The notes below the pieces were generated by a model that saw nothing but the letters and a program-made list of their open reading frames with translations, made no database searches and was not told where the DNA came from. A program made the position numbers and the translations under genes. DNA of 32,396 bases from Ruminococcus sp. GTDB taxonomy: Bacteria; Bacillota; Clostridia; Oscillospirales; Ruminococcaceae. Position 1 is the first letter of the stretch; the number at the start of each line of letters is the position of its first letter. Positions 22,734 through 31,143 of the stretch are shown here, in pieces. The stretch spans positions 1 to 32,396 of the forward strand of contig JAGBNQ010000066.1 in the NCBI GenBank assembly GCA_017634275.1. The letters run 5' to 3'.

Positions 22734-22767
22734 GAACCCAAAACAGCTTTGTGAGGGTGTTAATTAC
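22734..22767 (+). promoter_or_regulatory. Putative alternative-sigma promoter, site 1
   Basis: GAACC (22734-22738), 16 bases, then GGGTGTTAATTAC (22755-22767), 41 bases before the ATG of the 1073-residue protein. It is the least conserved of four such blocks (GAACC for GCACC, GGGTGT for GGGTAT). No TATAAT promoter is visible in its place. The upstream part of this gap (22550-22733) is A/T-rich with nothing else recognised. Confidence 0.5.
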
Positions 22768-22795
22768 AGAATAGCATTTTAAGGAGGAAATAAAA

Positions 22796-25700
22796 ATGCC
22801 AAGTTTAAAGCAAATATATGATAATGCGATAGAGACAGTTAAAAGAGAACCGCAAAAGATCGGCTCACATTTCTGGATTGCACTTATTGCCTATAAAATG
22901 ATGCAGGATGACCCTAACGATAACAGCTATGATCATAGCTTTAGGGAGATAGGAATGGATCAGTTTAAGTATATGAGCTCCCCTTCATATACAAAGACGC
23001 TGAAAATCATCGGTGAAGAACAATCCTTAGAGCTTATGCAGGATCCCGGCAGGTTCTGGAATGTATTTAACGTTTTTGAGGAGGAACCCGAGCGTCGTCC
23101 CGCTGCTGACATCAAGGCGGATGAAAAGTCGGCTTATGAAAAAAAGGTGGCTGACTTCAGCAAGACTTTAAAAGATGTAGAGAACGAGATAACACAAACA
23201 TACAACCAATCAAGGGCGATAGAAGGTAATACTCCTGAAAAAGAACAGCTTGCAGCAAGATCAAGAGAGCTTTCAAATCAGAGAAAAAAGCTGCAAAAAG
23301 ATATTTCTAAAGCCCGTGTGCAGCAGGCTAAAAGAAGTATTGCGCTTGCAGCTGCCGATTCAAATAACGGCAATGTTGGTGCTGTAAGCCCGGATGAGAT
23401 CGAAACTGAACTTGCAAACTTTGAAAAAGACCAGTATTTTGTTGAAAAGATAAATATGCTCAGCAGCCAAAGACTTGATGCAGTAATTGACGATTCTGCG
23501 AAGTTCATTGAGGAATACAGGGCTGAAAGAAAGATCTATGATGAGCTATTGGAGCTGAAGAACAGCAAGGATTACAAGAAGTTTGTTGACCGCATCGAGA
23601 CGCTTTTCAGCAATGACAGTGACCCCTTGTATGATAGCTATCAAAGCGCTGTCAATGCGTGCATAGACCGGAGTATATCTTTCAAAGGCGCTGATAAGGA
23701 GCTTGATGATGATGCTAAGGAATTCATTATCGGGGTATCTGATGAGCTTTCAAGACGTACTGCTGAAAACTGCATGGCTGTAAGGCAGGCAGAGCTTCAG
23801 ATGAGGCAGAGGGTAAGAAATGGCGAGTTTCCCGAAACAAGGCTTATAAATGATAATGGTAAGCTCCTTGATAAGATCGCTTATGATCTGACACAGTATC
23901 AGACTGATGCGGGCAGGAAGATGGACGTTTACAGCCAGCTGAATGAAGTGTTTGTCAGATGCACAACAACGTCAACAAGCGTTGATAAGGGTACTATAGA
24001 CGGAAAAACAGCGCGTGATTATGTAAAAGATAAACTATTAAATACCATTAAAGACACCTACGAGAAGAATCACCCCGAGTTCCTTGAGGGAATGGATAAG
24101 CACCCTGAAGGAGCGAGCGCTTTTATTAGGGAGCAGTATTTCTATCAGCCCCGAAAGAACAGGGAAGGCTTTGTCTATAAGAATAAGCTTGCAAAGGAAG
24201 GCGAGTCATACTTTGAGGGAATGCCTAAGTTCCATAAAAAGCTTTTGGATATGACACCCGAGGAATTCCTAAAGTTTGAAAACGAGGAGCTGAGAAAGCG
24301 CACTATTGACGCTGAGGCATCTGAGAAATTCAAGGGTATCTCCGGCAAGGCGGATTACCTTATCAGGGAAATGGAAGCTGAAAATGACGAAGTAAAGCAG
24401 ACAGATATTTACAAGAAGATGTATGATGAGCTTAAGAATTTCCAAAACCTCGGGACCAAGGATTTTATCACTGTAGGAAGTGTAGGCGACAAACGCACCG
24501 CTAAGAGAGGTGATCTATCAAGGCCGACAGTTAAAATGGCGCTTTCAAGGCTTAAAGATGCTGCTGAAGAATATAAGAAATACGACCCCGATTTTGCTAA
24601 TAAGATAAAGGGCTTTATATGGGAGCGTAATATAGAATACAAAAAATATCTTGAAAATGACCCTCTTCTTGAAAATGACTTTAAGCTTGTTGAAAAGGCA
24701 AAGAACGTAAGGGAAGAGATAAGGACAGCTAAATTTGATGAATACGCTGACATTACCAAGCGCCAGGCAGACTTTGGCGGAGAAAACGGCAAGATCAAAA
24801 AGCTTACCGATAAGTATAATAAAGCAAAGGTCATTTTAGGCAAAAAGGAATTTGACCGCGTAGGCGAGATGCTCGGCCGTGTAGCTAAGTCTTTTGAAAC
24901 AATGGAAAAGGCCGAAAAGCTCCGTGACAGCAAGAACAAGCAGGAAGATACAAATGCTAATAACGCATTGCGCAAAGAGATAGAGAAAGTAATAGAAAAC
25001 CTTGAACTGCTTAAAGAGGCAACGGGCAAGTATTTTGAGCATAAGAAGAATGACGGGCAGTGGATAGGCAATAATAAAAATGCCAACAAGAGAATAGCGG
25101 CTGTTAAGGATATCGACGAGTTTGCTGATACGTTCATTGAAATGATGAAGACTAAGTCGGATATTCTTGATAAAATGATAAAGGGCAAGCTTACCGAGCA
25201 TCAGAATATTATTGCTCAGCCTAAGCAGCCCTCGCCCGAGGAGAAATTTAATCAGAGCAAGCAAAGCTTTGCAAACGAGGCTGCCGAGGTTTGGCTCAAA
25301 AATAAGTTTAACAGCTACATTGATGAGCAGATAGATCTAAAGCACCCCGAGTATGATGCCGAGCAGAGAAAGCAGATACATGAGAAGAATGCTGACAAGG
25401 TCGGTGAGTATATTGCTCAGAATAAAGATGCGCTTAAAAATGATGAGGCCTTCAAGAGATTTATGGGCAGGATAAAAAATGAGCGTGACCTTGATAAGAT
25501 GAGGGGCTATGCTGTAAGTGATAACGGCAATAAGCTCTACAGGATAATAAACGGCGAGAAGATAATCGAGAAAGAGATCGTTGACCTTGACAAGAAGATC
25601 TTAAACGCTCAGGAGGATCTTACTAAGCGCAAGGACGGGCTTGATGAGAATGAATACCCCAACCCCGGGTACGAAGAAAACTTCAGCGATTATTCATCTA

Positions 25701-26017
25701 TCATTACTGCTTACTATTTCAAGGCGCATAAGCAGGAGCTTGGTGAGAACATCACAAACGAGAGCTTTGACAAGATGCAGCAGGAAATAATGGATAAGAA
25801 GATAATGAGAAATGTTATCCAGTCAAACAAGCCCGAAGAGCTTTACAATAAGGCTACATCAGGCAAGGGGCAGAATATCTGGAGCGAGTACAGTCACCAG
25901 CTCACAAAGCAAAATGAGCGCAAGAACAGCGTAATTAACAATGAGCCTAACAAAGAGATCGGTAAAAATGCTAATACCGAAAAAAATGCAGTCAATAGAA
26001 ACAGTGTATTGGGCTAA
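22796..26017 (+). CDS. Large charged helical protein of unknown function
   Basis: A 1073-residue protein that I do not recognise. No signal peptide, membrane helix or enzyme motif is seen. It begins MPSLKQIYDNAIETVKREP; a first helical region with a Trp (GSHFWIALIAYKMMQDDP) leads into long Lys/Glu-rich segments with coiled-coil character (about 110-170: KKVADFSKTLKDVENEI, KEQLAARSRELSNQRKKLQK; and again about 650-770). Hydrophobic residues are sparse. The last 50 residues are Asn/Lys-rich and end NRNSVLG. AAGGAGG precedes the ATG. The two following genes have the same kind of promoter and the third encodes a similar charged protein, also starting MPS and ending RNMFG. A structural, scaffold or storage role, or an effector, are all conceivable; none is shown. 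Confidence 0.85.
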   Translation: MPSLKQIYDNAIETVKREPQKIGSHFWIALIAYKMMQDDPNDNSYDHSFREIGMDQFKYMSSPSYTKTLKIIGEEQSLELMQDPGRFWNVFNVFEEEPERRPAADIKADEKSAYEKKVADFSKTLKDVENEITQTYNQSRAIEGNTPEKEQLAARSRELSNQRKKLQKDISKARVQQAKRSIALAAADSNNGNVGAVSPDEIETELANFEKDQYFVEKINMLSSQRLDAVIDDSAKFIEEYRAERKIYDELLELKNSKDYKKFVDRIETLFSNDSDPLYDSYQSAVNACIDRSISFKGADKELDDDAKEFIIGVSDELSRRTAENCMAVRQAELQMRQRVRNGEFPETRLINDNGKLLDKIAYDLTQYQTDAGRKMDVYSQLNEVFVRCTTTSTSVDKGTIDGKTARDYVKDKLLNTIKDTYEKNHPEFLEGMDKHPEGASAFIREQYFYQPRKNREGFVYKNKLAKEGESYFEGMPKFHKKLLDMTPEEFLKFENEELRKRTIDAEASEKFKGISGKADYLIREMEAENDEVKQTDIYKKMYDELKNFQNLGTKDFITVGSVGDKRTAKRGDLSRPTVKMALSRLKDAAEEYKKYDPDFANKIKGFIWERNIEYKKYLENDPLLENDFKLVEKAKNVREEIRTAKFDEYADITKRQADFGGENGKIKKLTDKYNKAKVILGKKEFDRVGEMLGRVAKSFETMEKAEKLRDSKNKQEDTNANNALRKEIEKVIENLELLKEATGKYFEHKKNDGQWIGNNKNANKRIAAVKDIDEFADTFIEMMKTKSDILDKMIKGKLTEHQNIIAQPKQPSPEEKFNQSKQSFANEAAEVWLKNKFNSYIDEQIDLKHPEYDAEQRKQIHEKNADKVGEYIAQNKDALKNDEAFKRFMGRIKNERDLDKMRGYAVSDNGNKLYRIINGEKIIEKEIVDLDKKILNAQEDLTKRKDGLDENEYPNPGYEENFSDYSSIITAYYFKAHKQELGENITNESFDKMQQEIMDKKIMRNVIQSNKPEELYNKATSGKGQNIWSEYSHQLTKQNERKNSVINNEPNKEIGKNANTEKNAVNRNSVLG

Positions 26018-26031
26018 GCGGTGAAAAAAGC

Positions 26032-26060
26032 TATCTCCCCGTGAAAAAAGCGGGGAGATA
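26032..26060. terminator. Stem-loop after the large protein gene
   Basis: TATCTCCCCG (26032-26041) pairs perfectly with CGGGGAGATA (26051-26060). GTGAAAAAAGC is repeated before and inside the hairpin. The following bases are A-rich rather than T-rich on the plus strand, so termination may be inefficient; on the minus strand a T run follows. Confidence 0.55.
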
Positions 26061-26081
26061 TCAAAAAATCCTAAAAATGAT

Positions 26082-26115
26082 GCACCATAACAGATATTAT
26101 CAGGGTATTACTTAT
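26082..26115 (+). promoter_or_regulatory. Putative alternative-sigma promoter, site 2
   Basis: TGCACC (G at 26082), 16 bases after GCACC, then GGGTATTACTTAT (26103-26115). The 13-base right half is identical to site 3. It lies 78 bases before the ATG at 26181, further than at the other three sites. Confidence 0.6.
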
Positions 26116-26180
26116 AGAGATGGGAATACTCATTTCAAGAATCTTTTAACCTGAACAAAGAAATAAAAACGGAGAAAGCT

Positions 26181-26402
26181 ATGAACGAAGTAAGGATCGA
26201 GGCGGCTTTAAGGGCAATGGGGCAGATGACGCCCCACGCGCCCGAAAAGACAGTTGAAAACATGATAAGCAAAATAAGAGCGCTTGACGCTAAAAGGCAA
26301 AAGCTTGCCGATAAGAGTGAGCCTTCGCTTAGTGCGCGCCAAAAGGAGATCAGCGCGCCGCAAAAGGACAATACTGTCAAGGGCATAAAGAAAACATTAT
26401 AA
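26181..26402 (+). CDS. Small basic protein of unknown function
   Basis: A 73-residue protein without recognised family. It reads MNEVRIEAALRAMGQMTPHA, then EKTVENMISKIRALDAKRQK, then a Ser/Lys/Gln-rich end. It is rich in Lys, Arg and Glu, predicted helical, with no membrane segment. GGAGAAAG precedes the ATG and a terminator follows, which supports a real gene. It lies between two genes for long charged proteins and shares their promoter block, so it is probably expressed with them and could be a partner or adaptor. No function is claimed. Confidence 0.7.
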   Translation: MNEVRIEAALRAMGQMTPHAPEKTVENMISKIRALDAKRQKLADKSEPSLSARQKEISAPQKDNTVKGIKKTL

Positions 26403-26410
26403 AACAAATC

Positions 26411-26440
26411 TGCTCTGAGGATATCGGGGCATTTTTGTTT
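26411..26440 (+). terminator. Terminator of the small basic protein gene
   Basis: TGCTCTGA (26411-26418) pairs with TCGGGGCA (26424-26431) including G-U pairs, followed by TTTTTGTTT. This separates the small gene from the next, which has its own promoter block. Confidence 0.7.
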
Positions 26441-26522
26441 AGGGCAAATAACGTAGTGCAGATAACGATATGTAAAACCAAACAAAACGGCTTTTTGAAA
26501 CTTGCAAAAAATGTGAGAGCCT

Positions 26523-26556
26523 GCACCCATTCATCATTTTATGGGGTATTACTTAT
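26523..26556 (+). promoter_or_regulatory. Putative alternative-sigma promoter, site 3
   Basis: TGCACC (G at 26523), 16 bases after GCACC, then GGGTATTACTTAT (26544-26556), 42 bases before the ATG at 26586. The left and right parts and their spacing equal site 2. Confidence 0.62.
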
Positions 26557-26585
26557 GAAAACAAAAAATCAAAGGAGAGATTTTT

Positions 26586-27524
26586 ATGCCAAGCAATAAC
26601 ATTGAGCTTTTAAAAGACCTAAAAGAGTTTAAGAAAAAGATCAAGGATAATAAAGAGCTTTCTGCCAAGGTTGACGGCTTTATAGATTTTTGCAATAAGA
26701 ATAAGGGCTTTGATAATTTTGACATCTTCTCACAAAAAGAGTCACTTTTTGACTTTGAAAGGAAAGAGCAGGAGGAGAAGAAGAAAAAGACCGCCGATAT
26801 GTTTGTTATCAGAGTTCATTATATTCAGGAGCTTGAGGAAGAGGCAAAGAAACTAAATGATAATTCGCTTAATGATAATATAAATAAGATCGCATCATCA
26901 CACAAGCTTACCGACGACGAGATAAAGACGCTGCAAAACTTTGAAAACGAGCATATGCTCAAAAAGGTCGAGGAGCAAAAGACTACCTCGCTTGAATTCA
27001 GCAAAATGGATGAGATATACAAGGACATCTCAAGCGAAAAGCTTATGGCGCCGCCCGAGGGTACCGACCCATATCAGTATCAGAAGGATACAGAGCCCGA
27101 GTTTGAAAAAGCTAAAGCAGCTTTGCAAAAACACTTTGCAAAGGCGCTCGCTGTCAAGACCTTCGGCAGAACTATCAGCAGCATGGCTGTCGGCGATGAA
27201 TCGGTAACGGAACATGATAAGGACGAAATGGCTAAGGAAATGCTGACAGATGAAAACATCAACTCATCGGCGAAGGATATCCAAACAAGGGACGACTTTA
27301 CGAGAATGATGCAGGATATCAGAACATGGCGTGACCTTAGGATAGTCACCCAGGAGGCTCAGGCAGGCGGTAATCTGCTGTTTAAGCGCCTTGCAGATAC
27401 CACTAAGAGAATGCTTGCCGAGGAGAGGCAGGCAGAGCAGGCGCAAAAACAAACGGAGGCTGAGAAGGAGCTTAATAAGGAAAGAGTGCTTAAGCCGCAG
27501 AACCAGCGCAATATGTTCGGATAG
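26586..27524 (+). CDS. Charged coiled-coil protein of unknown function
   Basis: A 312-residue protein that I do not recognise. It starts MPSNNIELLKDLKEFKKKIK, is dominated by Lys, Glu, Asp and Gln, and has coiled-coil-like heptads around 70-150 (QEEKKKKTADMF, YIQELEEEAKKLNDN, EHMLKKVEEQKT) and at the C-terminus (RMLAEERQAEQAQKQTEAEK). A more ordered middle (about 160-280) contains AKALAVKTFGRTISSMAVGD and DDFTRMMQDIRTWRDLRIVTQ. No signal peptide or membrane helix. The ends (MPS... and ...QRNMFG) resemble those of the 1073-residue protein (MPS... and ...NRNSVLG), hinting at a related origin or a common recognition tail. AAAGGAGAG precedes the ATG and a strong terminator follows. Confidence 0.82.
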   Translation: MPSNNIELLKDLKEFKKKIKDNKELSAKVDGFIDFCNKNKGFDNFDIFSQKESLFDFERKEQEEKKKKTADMFVIRVHYIQELEEEAKKLNDNSLNDNINKIASSHKLTDDEIKTLQNFENEHMLKKVEEQKTTSLEFSKMDEIYKDISSEKLMAPPEGTDPYQYQKDTEPEFEKAKAALQKHFAKALAVKTFGRTISSMAVGDESVTEHDKDEMAKEMLTDENINSSAKDIQTRDDFTRMMQDIRTWRDLRIVTQEAQAGGNLLFKRLADTTKRMLAEERQAEQAQKQTEAEKELNKERVLKPQNQRNMFG

Positions 27525-27559
27525 ATCTGACATTTTCTAATTTCCCCTATAGAATAGCT

Positions 27560-27594
27560 CCCGATACCTTTTAAAAGGTGTCGGGGGTTTTTTG
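27560..27594 (+). terminator. Terminator after the charged-protein cluster
   Basis: CCCGATACCTTTT (27560-27572) pairs with AAAAGGTGTCGGG (27573-27585), then GG and a T run. It closes the three-gene cluster. Confidence 0.9.
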
Positions 27595-27600
27595 TATATA

Positions 27601-27629
27601 TTGCATTTTTTACGGCTTTGTGATATAAT
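27601..27629 (+). promoter_or_regulatory. Promoter of the anion permease
   Basis: TTGCAT (27601-27606), a 17-base spacer and TATAAT (27624-27629), about 45 bases before the ATG at 27674. Confidence 0.65.
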
Positions 27630-27673
27630 CATAATTGCGGCTTAAATAATCTGCCGAAAAAAGGAAAAAGAAA

Positions 27674-28819
27674 ATGAAAAAAATAAAAGCGTTTTTAAAA
27701 AAAGAGCTGATGCTTACAATATCCGCGGCGGCCGCGGCGGCATCGCTTTTTATAACACCGCCGAGTGTGCAGCTTTTAAAGGATATCGACTGGCACACTC
27801 TCGGAACTCTGCTTATGATGCTTTGCGTGCTTGAAGGGTTCAAGCAGGAAAACGTTCTGAGGCCGCTTGTGTCATACGTTTCAAAAATGAAGAAAATGAC
27901 GAGCGTTTCGCTCTTTTTGATATTCGGGGTGTTTTTCAGCTCAATGTTCGTTACAAACGATGTTTCGCTCATCATTTTTGTGCCGCTTACCATTTTGATA
28001 TTCCGCGGCTGCAAAAAGGAGCATTACATTCTCCCCGTGATAAGCTTAGAAAACATCGCGGCGATACGCGGCTCGCTGCTCACCCCGTTTGGCAGCCCTC
28101 AGAATTTATATCTATTCGGGCAGTCGGGGGTAAGTGCGCAGAGGTTTATGCTGCATATGCTGCCGCTTTGTGCGATGTCGGCGGTGCTGCTCGTTATCTT
28201 TGTGCTTGTCCTTTACCGCAAGGACTTATCTGAGCCTATTGATTCCGACACTGACTCGCTCCCCGAGTGGAGTGCTGAAAACCGCGTAAAGCGAATAGCC
28301 TACCTCTCGCTTTTTGCGCTGATAATTATAACTATCGTTACACGCACGCAGTATTGGCCAATAGCCCTTGCTATTGTTATCGTAGTTATCTTTGCCGTTG
28401 ATAAGGGGCTCTTTTTAAAGGTCGATTATGTGCTGCTGTTTACCTTTTTGTGCTTTTTTATCTTCTCATCATCAGTCGCGGCAAATGACGGGATATCGGT
28501 AATTCTTGACAAGGCGGTCTCGGGGCATGAATATTTCTGGGCTATAGGGTTAAGCCAGATAATCTCAAACGTTCCCGCAACGATAGTTCTCTACCCCTTT
28601 GCGGATAATTTTGCAGGGCTTATCTACGGCGCTGACACGGCAGGGCTTTGCTCGCTTATCGGCTCGCTCGCATCGGTGATAAACTACCGTATTTATGTGC
28701 GCGAATACCCCGACGGGGGAGGGCGCTTTATAAAGGTTTTCACGATTATAAGCTGGGCATTTTTCCTGATAGTCGTTATCCCCGGGCTTTTGCTAAGCAG
28801 GTGGGATTTCTTTTCATAA
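27674..28819 (+). CDS. SLC13/ArsB-NhaD-type anion permease
   Basis: A 381-residue inner-membrane transporter of the ion-transporter superfamily (CitMHS, ArsB/NhaD, SLC13). About ten helices are seen, beginning MLTISAAAAAASLFITPPS. The two symmetric hairpin regions are FVTNDVSLIIFVPLTILIF (Asn-Asp, first half) and IGLSQIISNVPATIVLYPF (Ser-Asn-Val-Pro, second half), the family's ion and substrate sites. LTPFGSPQNLYLFGQSG after the first half is the usual re-entrant loop. The substrate may be a dicarboxylate, citrate, an oxyanion or a proton-coupled ion; the sequence does not decide. It has its own promoter and no partner gene; a MITE-like element begins seven bases after its stop. Confidence 0.85.
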   Translation: MKKIKAFLKKELMLTISAAAAAASLFITPPSVQLLKDIDWHTLGTLLMMLCVLEGFKQENVLRPLVSYVSKMKKMTSVSLFLIFGVFFSSMFVTNDVSLIIFVPLTILIFRGCKKEHYILPVISLENIAAIRGSLLTPFGSPQNLYLFGQSGVSAQRFMLHMLPLCAMSAVLLVIFVLVLYRKDLSEPIDSDTDSLPEWSAENRVKRIAYLSLFALIIITIVTRTQYWPIALAIVIVVIFAVDKGLFLKVDYVLLFTFLCFFIFSSSVAANDGISVILDKAVSGHEYFWAIGLSQIISNVPATIVLYPFADNFAGLIYGADTAGLCSLIGSLASVINYRIYVREYPDGGGRFIKVFTIISWAFFLIVVIPGLLLSRWDFFS

Positions 28820-28825
28820 AATAAT

Positions 28826-28999
28826 ATGGTTATCCCTTTGACACACCAAAGACAAATCGCCTTAATACGGTGTGCTAAGCAGGGGCGACCCCACCCCCAA
28901 CCCCCTCCCCTTACGAAGGGGAGGGGGCTATGGCAAGCCGTTTTATAGCAACGACCCTATTTGCTTGCAAAAAATGTGGTGTGTCAGGTATATAACCAT
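28826..28999. repeat. MITE-like element, family A, long copy
   Basis: A 174-base element with terminal inverted repeats: ATGGTTATCCCTTTGACACA at the left, and a right end whose reverse complement begins ATGGTTATATACCTGACACA. The ends and the inner right part (AAAAATGTGGTGTGTCAGG) match the short copy at 8617-8703. In the middle CCCCCTCCCC-TTAC-GAAGGGGAGGGGG forms a very strong hairpin absent from the short copy. No coding capacity. As it lies just after the permease stop it may serve as its terminator. Confidence 0.75.
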
Positions 29000-29010
29000 A
29001 TAAAATAAAG

Positions 29011-29047
29011 ATCACCATAATGTCGCATTGACATTACGGTGATTTTT
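29011..29047. terminator. Bidirectional terminator before the anti-sigma gene end
   Basis: ATCACCATAATGTC (29011-29024) pairs with GACATTACGGTGAT (29030-29043) with one mismatch, followed by TTTTTG on the plus strand. On the minus strand it closes the anti-sigma operon. Confidence 0.85.
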
Positions 29048-29058
29048 TGTAAGTATTC

Positions 29059-29487
29059 TCATTTTAACAGCAGACCCTTTTTGAGAGTGAGGATATTATG
29101 CCCGTCAAGGTACTCATACCTTACATCGTCCATATTCTTCTTTACCATGAATATACCGAGGCCGCCTATCTTTCTTTCCTTTGCCGAGAGCTTTACATTC
29201 GGGTCTTCCTTAGCAAGCGGATCATATGGCACGCCGTTGTCAATAAAGGTTATATCAACAGAAGGCGGATCGCCGAGAACCTCAACGCGCACCTTAGCCG
29301 TGCCTATTTCGGGGTTGTAGGCATAGTGCGCGATGTTTACAAATATCTCCTCCACCGCGACATCTATCTGCACCTGCACCCTCATAGGGCACTGAGCCTT
29401 TTCAAGCTCCTCATCAATAAAGGCAAGAACTTTTGGGAGGTTTTTGTCAGTAGCCTCTATTTCAAGCTCCTTCATTTTCTTAATCAC
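29059..29487 (-). CDS. Anti-sigma factor/serine kinase (RsbW/SpoIIAB-like HATPase)
   Basis: A 142-residue GHKL-type ATPase of the RsbW/SpoIIAB group, which binds an alternative sigma factor and phosphorylates its anti-anti-sigma partner. The N box is DVAVEEIFVNIAHYAY, the G1 box FIDNGVPYDP and the G2 box GGLGIFMVKKNMD. Length and order fit the family. The frame can start at GTG 29487, overlapping the STAS gene stop (GTGA), or at ATG 29475; coupling favours the overlap but both are plausible. The gene follows the STAS gene in one leftward operon. A sigma-factor gene, which often follows such pairs, is not here: a terminator ends the operon. It may instead control a remote sigma factor or another regulator. 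Confidence 0.87.
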   Translation of the reverse strand: MIKKMKELEIEATDKNLPKVLAFIDEELEKAQCPMRVQVQIDVAVEEIFVNIAHYAYNPEIGTAKVRVEVLGDPPSVDITFIDNGVPYDPLAKEDPNVKLSAKERKIGGLGIFMVKKNMDDVRYEYLDGHNILTLKKGLLLK

Positions 29488-29792
29488 GCCCCTTTTTTCT
29501 CAATATTCAAGATCGTCGAAAATCCGGTGATATCGAAGACCTCCATTATCTCATCGCTAACCCCCGTAACTCTCAGGCCGCCCTTTTTGCTCATGACCTT
29601 ATGAGCCGAAAGAAGTATACGCAGCCCTGCAGAGGAAACATATTTAACATCTGTAAAATCCACCACCAGAGCGTTGCACTCGTCATAGCTTGCCCTTATT
29701 TCGGTTTCAAGCATGGGGGTAGTTGTGGTATCCACCCTTCCGCTTACGGTAAGTATCGTTGTGTTGTTATCAAAAGTTTTATTAATATCCGT
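29484..29792 (-). CDS. Anti-anti-sigma factor (STAS domain, RsbV/SpoIIAA-like), probable ACG start
   Basis: A single STAS domain of about 102 residues that would sequester the RsbW-like kinase. The core is LTVSGRVDTTTTPMLETEI, VDFTDVKYVSSAGLRILLSAH with the phosphorylatable Ser of SSAG, and ITGFSTILNIEK. A GTG at 29735 would remove the first strand. In-frame upstream sequence (DINKTFDNNTTILTVSG) fits the family start, but no ATG, GTG or TTG is present. ACG at 29792-29790, about six bases after AGGGTGAT and directly before GAT-ATT-AAT, stands where ATG is expected. So either initiation is at ACG or ATT, or one base is wrong. The stop overlaps the kinase gene. Its promoter is at 29827-29855, with a possible attenuator further upstream. 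Confidence 0.82.
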   Translation of the reverse strand, partial: TDINKTFDNNTTILTVSGRVDTTTTPMLETEIRASYDECNALVVDFTDVKYVSSAGLRILLSAHKVMSKKGGLRVTGVSDEIMEVFDITGFSTILNIEKKGA

Positions 29793-29826
29793 AGTATATC
29801 ACCCTTTCAAAGTTTAATACACACTA

Positions 29827-29855
29827 ATTATAACATATATTTATGAGTTTGTCTA
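29827..29855 (-). promoter_or_regulatory. Promoter of the STAS/anti-sigma operon
   Basis: On the minus strand: TAGACA (29855-29850), a 17-base spacer and TATAAT (29832-29827), with TG two bases before the -10. The transcript would start about 30 bases before the proposed ACG start. Confidence 0.75.
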
Positions 29856-29863
29856 CCTGATTT

Positions 29864-29914
29864 AAAAAAATGTGAGAGTTAAACGGGCACACTCTCAGGG
29901 GGAGGGTATGCCCG
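29864..29914 (-). terminator. Terminator with an overlapping alternative hairpin (attenuator-like)
   Basis: On the minus strand, TGAGAGT (29897-29891) pairs with ACTCTCA (29879-29873), followed by CATTTTTTT: a terminator. An alternative stem, CGGGCATAC (29914-29906) with GTGTGCCCG (29892-29884), nine pairs with one G-U, uses overlapping bases, so both cannot form together. Confidence 0.6.
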
Positions 29915-29986
29915 CCTATATAGAAGGGGTGTATCACATAAGCATTGCAAAAGAAAAGTGTGTTACTCTGTTTCCTATATCAGCAT
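29864..29986 (-). ncRNA. Candidate small RNA or leader upstream of the STAS operon
   Basis: An extended -10 (TGG-TATAAT, minus strand 29998-29993) with no good -35 could start a transcript near 29986 that ends at the hairpins at 29864-29914, about 120 bases. No open frame of note. It matches no RNA family I know. It could be a free small RNA or a leader for the STAS operon. The rest of the gap to 30150 shows nothing else. Confidence 0.4.
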
Positions 29987-30152
29987 ATTAGTATTATACC
30001 ATATCACCTGCAACATATCCGCAACAAATCGCCGCTGTTTGGGGTGGTCATTGTTACGAAATTTTTGCCGTTATTTTGTAAACTTTGCACAAAAAAGGCA
30101 ATACTGCATAAATGATCCTACGGTACTGCCGGAATAACAGAAAGACAATATA

Positions 30153-30185
30153 AACGGGCACCGCCGATAATGTGCGGTACCCGTT
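30153..30185 (-). terminator. Hairpin after the membrane protein gene
   Basis: On the minus strand AACGGG...CCGC pairs with GCGG...CCCGTT (30185-30180 with 30158-30153), nine bases after the stop, followed by TTATATTGTCTTT. A moderate terminator. Confidence 0.65.
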
Positions 30186-30193
30186 GATACTAT

Positions 30194-31081
30194 CTATTTT
30201 TGGTCTATTTTAAACTGTAAAGAATTCTTTTCCTTGTATATCGTGAGCTCAAAGCTGTCCTCTTTGTCACCGTCCTTGATAGTAAAGCTTACTGTTCCGA
30301 CCTTTTTTGCATTTACATAGACAATGCCCTGCCCGGGGTCACTGAGCTCGACGCTTATCCCCTCGTCGCCCTCTACGGTCAGCTCGGCATTCTCGGAATA
30401 GGTATAGCCATCGGGGAGAAAAGAATCGCCCGAATAGCTTATATTATTCATATTAATAATGACTGCCGCCACAGTAACTGCCGCTATGGCAGCAAGTATT
30501 ATCTTCTGCTTTTTGTCTGATGTGAATGCAAAAATAAATACCGCCGTCTGAGCAAGACAGAGAACCGTGGTAACGATCATTTTAGGCGGGTCTGAAATAA
30601 AATCAAACAGTGTTCCCATACCTGTGACGGTCATAAATACCACCACAGGGGCGATGATAAGCGTGCTTAACCAGTTTCTCTTTTTAAGATACCAGCCGAT
30701 AAACGCCATTGGGAAAGTAAGCAGCGTCCAGTAAAACCAAGTTCGGTAATATCCGAAGAGCTTCCAGCCCATATCGGAAAACGGCACCTCAAAAAGATAG
30801 ATAAGCGGCTGGCTTATCAGGAAAAATACAAAGGTCTTGAGTGCCGAGTCAAGGGGCTTTTTGCAGTTTGGCATAATAAGTATGGCAAGAACGAACCATG
30901 CCTCAAAGTCAATGCCCATACGCTCAAAGGAGGTATCTTTAAATATCGGCACGACAAGGAAAACTGTCGTGATGACAGCCGAGATGAGTGCCAGGGCTAT
31001 CACCTTTACCCAGCTCATTTCAATTCCGCCGTACAGCTTTTGTAATACTCCGCTTTTTTCTGCTGTTTTGTTTTCTTCCAT
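30194..31081 (-). CDS. Membrane protein with C-terminal extracytoplasmic beta domain, unknown function
   Basis: A 295-residue protein that I do not recognise. A polar N-terminus (MEENKTAEKSGVLQKLYGG) is followed by about six or seven membrane helices between residues 25 and 210 (WVKVIALALISAVITTVFLV, WFVLAILIMP, TFVFFLISQPLIYLF, WFYWTLLTFPMAFIGWYL, LIIAPVVVFMTVTGM, TTVLCLAQTAVFIFAF, IILAAIAAVTVAAVII). The last 80 residues are a Gly/Asp/Val-rich domain with beta pattern (VEGDEGISVELSDPGQGIVYVN), probably Ig-like and outside. The start at 31081 is chosen over GTG 31090 because GAAAGG lies eight bases before it. Its only promoter candidate is a (T)GCACC-N16-GGGTATTA block, as in front of the charged-protein genes, so co-regulation is likely. 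Confidence 0.8.
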   Translation of the reverse strand: MEENKTAEKSGVLQKLYGGIEMSWVKVIALALISAVITTVFLVVPIFKDTSFERMGIDFEAWFVLAILIMPNCKKPLDSALKTFVFFLISQPLIYLFEVPFSDMGWKLFGYYRTWFYWTLLTFPMAFIGWYLKKRNWLSTLIIAPVVVFMTVTGMGTLFDFISDPPKMIVTTVLCLAQTAVFIFAFTSDKKQKIILAAIAAVTVAAVIINMNNISYSGDSFLPDGYTYSENAELTVEGDEGISVELSDPGQGIVYVNAKKVGTVSFTIKDGDKEDSFELTIYKEKNSLQFKIDQK

Positions 31082-31114
31082 TTTCTTCACCTTTCTTTAT
31101 TGTTCTCACATATA

Positions 31115-31143
31115 TAATACCCTTATTTTCCCATTTCGGGTGC
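31115..31143 (-). promoter_or_regulatory. Putative alternative-sigma promoter, site 4
   Basis: On the minus strand TGCACC (GCACC at 31143-31139), 16 bases, then GGGTATTA (31122-31115), 41 bases before the ATG at 31081. Spacing and boxes equal sites 2 and 3, although it stands in a different operon on the other strand. It begins just after the stop of the flavodoxin gene. Confidence 0.6.

Follow-up and report, generated by a model that had tools for sequence, protein, structure and literature searches.

In plant pathogens, an injection machine and its effectors share one sigma factor and one promoter type: HrpL reads the hrp box, GGAACC-N15/16-CCACNNA, and its regulon includes effectors. HrpL is the extracytoplasmic function (ECF) sigma factor of the genes for the type III secretion system (T3SS) (PMC7600996). 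A comparable arrangement, built on a type IV secretion system (T4SS), is described here. It centers on a promoter signal found four times in a 32,396-nt stretch of Ruminococcus sp. DNA (contig JAGBNQ010000066.1 of assembly GCA_017634275.1, the whole of which is called the window below) and repeatedly in related genomes. From the sequence evidence it is likely that a dedicated ECF sigma factor drives these boxes, its own gene, a T4SS operon, and a dispersed set of genes for effector-like proteins. The likeness to HrpL is one of logic; the present system differs in its Gram-positive T4SS, its -10 element (GGGTATTA), and a sigma gene that heads the secretion operon with its own box.

While HrpL is the nearest precedent for the regulatory logic, the nearest for the effectors is the X-T4SS of the Xanthomonadales. 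Its effector genes are mostly dispersed, and their products carry a C-terminal domain (XVIPCD) of ~120 aa with a Gln-rich end, needed for VirD4 binding and T4SS-dependent secretion (PMC6536674). The C-terminal module and N/Q/P/K-rich tail described below resemble the XVIPCD in general features, and the X-T4SS differs in being a diderm system with a full VirB set and antibacterial enzymes with cognate inhibitors. To our knowledge, no ECF sigma operon is known for it. For Gram-positive bacteria, a 2025 review notes with surprise that almost every T4SS function known so far is confined to DNA transfer; it treats dedicated effector translocators as a long-standing question, with one protein exporter described (PMC12857230). 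The 89K T4SS of Streptococcus suis is reported there to export a protein; it differs in belonging to a pathogenicity island and in having one named substrate, and the review does not contain the word "sigma". The same source gives the Patescibacteria as the one Gram-positive exception with VirB2-like pilins. The T4SSs of Patescibacteria and of mycoplasma integrative and conjugative elements are similar to the present one in their pilin (Pfam T4SS_pilin / Mbov_0395), VirB4 (nearest Mbov_0397), and VirB6-like protein (nearest MMCAP2_0566), but the present one belongs to a Ruminococcus, is linked to one ECF sigma factor and many co-regulated proteins, and has an operon free of PF03432 relaxases. 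The finding offers a defined machine, a named strain (Ruminococcus sp. FC2018), and a promoter by which candidate cargo can be listed without recourse to homology; if true, it would add a contact weapon or signaling route to rumen ecology.

The window belongs to a 1.76 Mb assembly that is 58.65% complete (G000), one of seven genomes of the genus (G000–G006). These were compared within a set of 120 relatives, the other 113 being from other genera, and within a wider set of 396 genomes of the family. A sequence-only reading of the window had placed boxes at four positions, each separated from the GGG of the -10 element by exactly 16 bases after GCACC or GAACC, and both positions and gap were confirmed:

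22734 to 22762, plus strand: regulon promoter with the variant box GAACCC-N15-GGGTGTTA, upstream of a 1073-aa gene (GGG to ATG 41 nt; matrix score 24.0)
26082 to 26110, plus strand: regulon promoter GCACCA-N15-GGGTATTA, upstream of a 73-aa gene (matrix score 31.8)
26523 to 26551, plus strand: regulon promoter with perfect consensus, upstream of a 312-aa gene (matrix score 45.2)
31115 to 31143, minus strand: regulon promoter GCACCC-N15-GGGTATTA, upstream of a 295-aa gene (matrix score 32.1)

The GGG-to-ATG distance, counted from the first G, is 41 nt for the gene starting at 22796, 78 nt at 26181, 42 nt at 26586, and 41 nt at 31081 (minus strand), in agreement with the 41–42 bases given earlier for three of the genes. 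Three boxes are exact copies of GCACC-N16-GGGTATTA, the only ones in the 32 kb, and the fourth (22734) has two mismatches. By a weight matrix trained on 83 sites, all from genomes other than the window's, the four are the top four sites of the window; the best score among 40 simulated Markov-1 windows was 13.7. Because of the three exact matches and the matrix scores relative to simulated windows, all four boxes are far beyond chance.

The sequence-only reading had proposed a scan of the whole genome for the motif; the pattern GCACCN{15,17}GGGTATTA gave 10 matches in G000 and none in the reversed control. The form GCACCC-N14..16-GGGTATTA is found 9 times in G000, 17 in G001, 15 in G002, 11 in G004, 16 in G005, and 24 in G006, giving six of the seven genomes 9–24 copies each, and not at all in G003. 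These 92 sites compare with two reversed-control matches in the same genomes, and with two matches against four control matches in the 113 genomes of other genera. A longer form (TGCAMCC...GGGTATTAYTT) is present in 15 of the 396 family genomes, with no reversed-control match in any of them: all seven of the genus and eight others, of which two (G239 and G389) have single sites before a lipoprotein gene and are not counted as part of the sigma-T4SS system. The consensus of the 92 sites is (A-rich, then T-rich)-T-GCACCC-RWW-N12-GGGTATTA-CTTAYGAAA, with a spacer between GCACCC and GGG of 15 nt in 77, 16 nt in 13, and 14 nt in two. Together, the sequence comparisons indicate that the repeated signal is a genuine promoter shared by a group of rumen bacteria.

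Among the sigma-70 region 2 matches listed for the genus, five genes directly follow a motif copy; G001, G002, G004, G005, and G006 have one each. All encode one orthologous 156-aa protein, its ATG lying 11 nt past the start of the GGG. When named genomes were scanned, 12 orthologues were obtained with 70–100% identity, labeled Ruminococcus or Oscillospiraceae and from rumen or omasum where a source is stated; several of the 12 are on the same contigs as G001–G004 and G006, and the G005 copy is a thirteenth. They include that of Ruminococcus sp. FC2018, which we take to be a cultured rumen isolate. In all 13 orthologues the motif copy ends 3 nt before the sigma ATG and keeps the 11-nt geometry; in all 12 from the scan of named genomes, TGCA[AC]CC-N15-GGGTATT[AC][CT]TT stands immediately before the ATG. 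The protein is 156 aa long (158 aa in two orthologues). Its G006 copy matches PF04542 (1.9e-12) and PF08281 (1e-13), corresponding to regions 2 and 4, with neither region 1.2 nor region 3 matched by Pfam up to E 1, and matches TIGR02937 at E 1.2e-27 (96.6 bits, cut-off 42.9). By this domain content, the motif-linked protein is an ECF (group IV) sigma factor limited to regions 2 and 4. The nearest other sigma factor among the 120 relatives (G021, E 6.2e-36) is from a genome without the box.

A gene placed in this way would be autoregulated through its own promoter copy. With the ATG placed 11 nt past the start of the GGG and transcription usually beginning 6–8 nt after the -10 element, the sigma mRNA is probably leaderless or nearly so. 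Promoter, sigma factor, and secretion operon are tied together by position, conservation, and co-variation; on these grounds the boxes are very probably read by one dedicated sigma factor, to which binding of the motif is attributed here. The suggestion in the sequence-only reading that the four genes form a regulon of an alternative sigma factor very probably holds on a genome-wide scale, but the type of sigma factor that it had proposed (SigB, SigF, or SigG) does not.

The co-variation concerns the -35 block. G003 has no GCACCC boxes, but its sigma gene is present, with TGCAACC in its own promoter and four TGCAACC boxes genome-wide. In a search over ten genomes, which gave one reversed-control match, the boxes were TGCAACC in G125 (10/10) and G126 (2/2) and TGCACCC in G121 (18/18), G000 (10/10), G124 (2/2), and G122 (1/1). 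When each of the 13 sigma sequences is classed by the -35 block of its own promoter, only positions 137 and 145 separate the classes, and both are in the region 4.2 helix. The three TGCAACC sigma factors are not one clade, requiring three changes on the tree. In an alignment made here, position 137 matches position 166 of C. glutamicum SigH, which is among those altered in published work on -35 specificity (PMC11588781). The -35 variant differs regulon-wide between species, together with two sigma residues in the helix expected to read it: a sigma-promoter pair seen changing its -35 code.

The sequence-only reading had overlooked that the sigma gene heads a T4SS operon. Downstream of it are, in order, genes for a ~70-aa protein, a VirB2-like pilin, an exported-looking protein, VirD4, a second exported-looking protein, a VirB6-like protein, and VirB4. 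The ~70-aa protein is present in 10 of 12 loci and the pilin in all 12; VirD4 and the VirB6-like protein are found on every contig that reaches them (9/9 and 8/8), and VirB4 in six of 12 loci, the sequence at the others ending too early to show it. In the G005 and G006 copies, matches over cut-off were obtained for NF045973 (6.5e-84), NF045848 (1.8e-45), and PF18895 (2.2e-10), while the match of the truncated VirB4 to NF045975 (1e-99, 334.5 bits) is below its cut-off of 590. The operon therefore includes the VirB4 and VirD4 ATPases, a VirB6-like channel protein, and a pilin; its two exported-looking proteins have no usable Pfam or NCBIfam match. Read-through from the sigma transcript would bring all of these under the same promoter. 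In G002 and G004, the 3′ end of virB4 contains an extra promoter copy that precedes a STAS gene; similar copies are present in G006 and G001 (the Pfam assignment as STAS is for the G004 copy only). Near the operon in G004, Pfam also identifies a histidine kinase / response-regulator pair, an HD-domain protein, and STAS proteins, which are candidates for the input signal.

The genes behind the dispersed boxes form a distinctive set. An ATG-started open frame of at least 60 aa lies within 130 nt of 79 of the 92 sites, and 56 of the 92 first genes begin with Met-Pro. Pfam and NCBIfam recognize almost none of the products, as the sequence-only reading had said of the window's; what it missed is that they fall into families with common C-terminal features. 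When two extra window genes are included, 62 of 81 products belong to four similarity networks (25, 20, 9, and 8 members). None of 54 complete large products has a membrane-like segment, versus 76 of 163 other genes of the same stretches. Compared with 87 soluble controls, the last 30 residues are more basic (net charge +1.74 vs. -0.38, p 3.9e-6), richer in N+Q+P+K (0.37 vs. 0.22, p 4e-12), and poor in aromatics, with p values that are too small because the products are related proteins. A module of ~190 residues, defined by residues 73–262 of the window's 312-aa protein, occurs in 23 proteins of the fetched loci. In 19 of these it ends 39–57 aa from the C-terminus regardless of protein length; in the other four it ends 0 (where the contig end cuts the gene), 86, 87, and 218 residues from it. 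A C-terminal region common to dispersed, co-regulated, soluble proteins is thus seen, as in an effector repertoire, and the large soluble regulon products may be T4SS effectors.

Family and promoter also go together. Of 21 further family members picked by iterated hidden Markov model (HMM), 16 have a high-scoring box, versus three of 153 other genes, and those three all belong to the regulon as well (a sigma gene, the window gene at 30194, and a family-gene fragment). The largest effector-like family is found in six of the 120 relatives, which are the six with multiple TGCACCC boxes, and in none of the 113 outside the genus. Several regulon genes in relatives (L077, L081, L101, L123, L132) look split or truncated, which points to a rapidly changing repertoire or to errors of assembly. 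In G001, the N-terminal stretch of a 731-aa regulon product (L101:444-2636) resembles, by eye, a papain-type cysteine protease site, a family absent among the Pfam matches of 69 regulon products.

The mechanism that can be proposed from these patterns is as follows. A signal would activate the sigma factor, and because its gene is under its own promoter, this would act as a positive-feedback switch. The sigma transcript would run on into the Gram-positive T4SS operon, while the same sigma factor would fire 9–24 or more dispersed promoters per genome, the products of which would be mostly large soluble helical proteins with the C-terminal module, a basic N/Q/P/K-rich tail, or both. Machine and cargo would be made together, VirD4 would recognize the C-terminal ends, and the T4SS would, we infer, pass the proteins into or onto neighboring rumen cells. 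In its fullest version (an effector-delivering Gram-positive T4SS with a self-driving ECF sigma factor, an effector set of 10 to >20 large helical proteins in each genome, targets among rumen ciliates, fungi, or rival bacteria, and a -35 code switched more than once together with two recognition-helix residues), this is on balance favored, if by little.

A number of observations weigh against the proposed mechanism. The window's own assembly, at its 58.65% completeness, has no match to the sigma factor or to VirB4, so that the link between the two and the window rests on congeners. The -35 classes are mixed in G120 (6+1) and G123 (2+1), and the residue test is a modest one: of the 286 possible three-versus-ten splits of the sigma sequences, 13 give at least two separating columns anywhere, and four, the observed split included, give two in region 4.2. 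VirB1, VirB3, and VirB8 were not recognized in the operon with Pfam or NCBIfam. In G003, where both sigma factor and T4SS are present, the largest family is unrepresented at E <= 1e-10. The regulon products show no convincing enzymatic domain, with one weak partial bromodomain match (37/84 positions), and these helical proteins could instead function intracellularly; profiles iterated on such proteins may also drift. Some targets are not effector-like, namely the 295-aa window protein, three exported proteins, and the internal promoter before the STAS gene. The regulon assignment is drawn from sequence throughout, and VirD4-dependent export into a target cell is its hypothetical part. The loose pattern (up to three mismatches) is by itself only weakly significant in the window, with 11 matches versus 6.45 expected and five of 100 shuffles reaching 11. 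This last result is what speaks for a chance or repeat-borne motif, an explanation with next to no probability and ruled out by the genome counts (92 vs. two in seven genomes) and the simulated windows (13.7 or less in all 40); spacers and flanks also differ between motif copies.

The alternative that would leave most of the above in place accepts the boxes and the ECF sigma factor as described but has the T4SS move DNA, as a domesticated or degenerate conjugative element, with the large proteins forming a co-regulated cytoplasmic or structural program rather than cargo. VirD4, VirB4, and the pilin do match conjugation families (CD1115, Mbov_0397, and Mbov_0395), and PF03432 relaxases are encoded elsewhere in five of the seven genomes of the genus. 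Within the sigma-T4SS stretches, however, there is no relaxase of PF03432, the one relaxase family searched; the nearest on the same contig are separated from the sigma gene by ~25 kb (G005) and ~48 kb (G004), and the incomplete assemblies G001 and G002 have none anywhere. All 12 loci preserve the sigma-pilin arrangement, and the regulon products have common C-terminal features and no membrane segments, with the largest family absent from the 113 relatives outside the genus. DNA transfer is therefore considered unlikely, though a serious contender.

The two other alternatives concern what reads the boxes. The -10 element recalls those of SigB, SigF, and SigG, which are GGGTAT-like, and the sequence-only reading had assigned the promoters to such a general stress or sporulation sigma factor. 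Among the matches listed, adjacent sigma gene pairs (frames of ~241–244 and ~260–273 aa) are found in G001, G002, G004, G005, and G006 and resemble sigE-sigG in layout, hinting that these Ruminococcus keep sporulation sigma factors. The window itself (29062-29735, minus strand) encodes an anti-sigma kinase-like protein (HATPase_c_2, 4.5e-21) adjoining a STAS protein, like RsbW/RsbV, although no link from this pair to the ECF regulon was shown. Here, however, the -10 is combined with a TGCAMCC -35 block and a 15-nt gap, the sigma factor linked to the motif by position is an ECF one with only regions 2 and 4 in all 13 orthologues, and the -35 block co-varies with it. The SigB/SigF-family gene that the sequence-only reading would have sought in the same genome failed to appear, TIGR02980 giving five weak matches with none over a strict cut-off (reached in one of 14 control genomes) in an incomplete assembly. 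The motif also has a patchy distribution (15 of 396 family genomes), which is not what core sporulation or stress promoters show, and this assignment is very improbable. A classical transcription factor binding site, suggested by the partial inverted repeat ACCC...GGGT in the consensus, is hardly credible: the two kept blocks are 15 ± 1 nt apart with a mostly free spacer and A- and T-rich stretches upstream, the distance to gene starts is short and mostly constant (11 nt for the sigma gene), and residues of the linked sigma factor change along with the -35 block. A sigma-70 consensus scan, a weak test, found no promoter-like site on the right strand in the four window leaders, agreeing with the earlier statement that these genes have no TTGACA/TATAAT promoter, and this too argues against such a binding site.

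Under a dedicated ECF sigma factor, the four window genes would be:

22796 to 26017, plus strand: 1073-aa soluble, predicted all-helical putative T4SS effector, in which residues ~280–832 represent the largest regulon protein family
26181 to 26402, plus strand: 73-aa protein, by blastp paralogous to the ~70-aa product of the gene that lies between those for sigma factor and pilin
26586 to 27524, plus strand: 312-aa putative T4SS effector, with the recurrent C-terminal module at residues 73–262 and a 50-residue end after it
30194 to 31081, minus strand: 295-aa protein, membrane-like to the eye, with no Pfam match

The family assignment of the 1073-aa protein is from an HMM iterated from a 756-aa protein (E 1.5e-100); it has no match in Pfam or NCBIfam, and its predicted structure is helical at low confidence (pLDDT 54.8, with residues 921–1073 below 50). 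The AF2 model of the 312-aa protein is all-helical with a pLDDT of 79.7, the last 10 residues falling below 50. The 73-aa protein is 43–59% identical by blastp to its counterparts at L142, L140, L138, and L143. The window paralogue has no Pfam match over cut-off; it is a candidate anti-sigma factor, adaptor, or small substrate. The 295-aa protein resembles, as judged by eye, the product of a G005 regulon gene (289 aa) with its own box 44 nt before the ATG.

Some features of the leaders may be added. In two genomes of genus g132 (L195 and L196), a single TGCAACC...GGGTATTATTT box is kept before a lipoprotein gene, with a similar TCAGAAAGCG leader; no link to the sigma-T4SS system was detected. 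Across the 92 sites, CTTAYGAAA is kept after GGGTATTA, in the first ~10 nt past the -10, often with an ATG-like triplet even where the gene starts 30–60 nt further on. This stretch could act as an initial transcribed element, or in certain leaders could represent a short leaderless open reading frame. A repeat with the core GCAACACCGCACGACC, whole or in part, lies between promoter and gene in the leaders of L005/L115, L018/L081, L028, and L198, in one case apparently beside an interrupted family gene.

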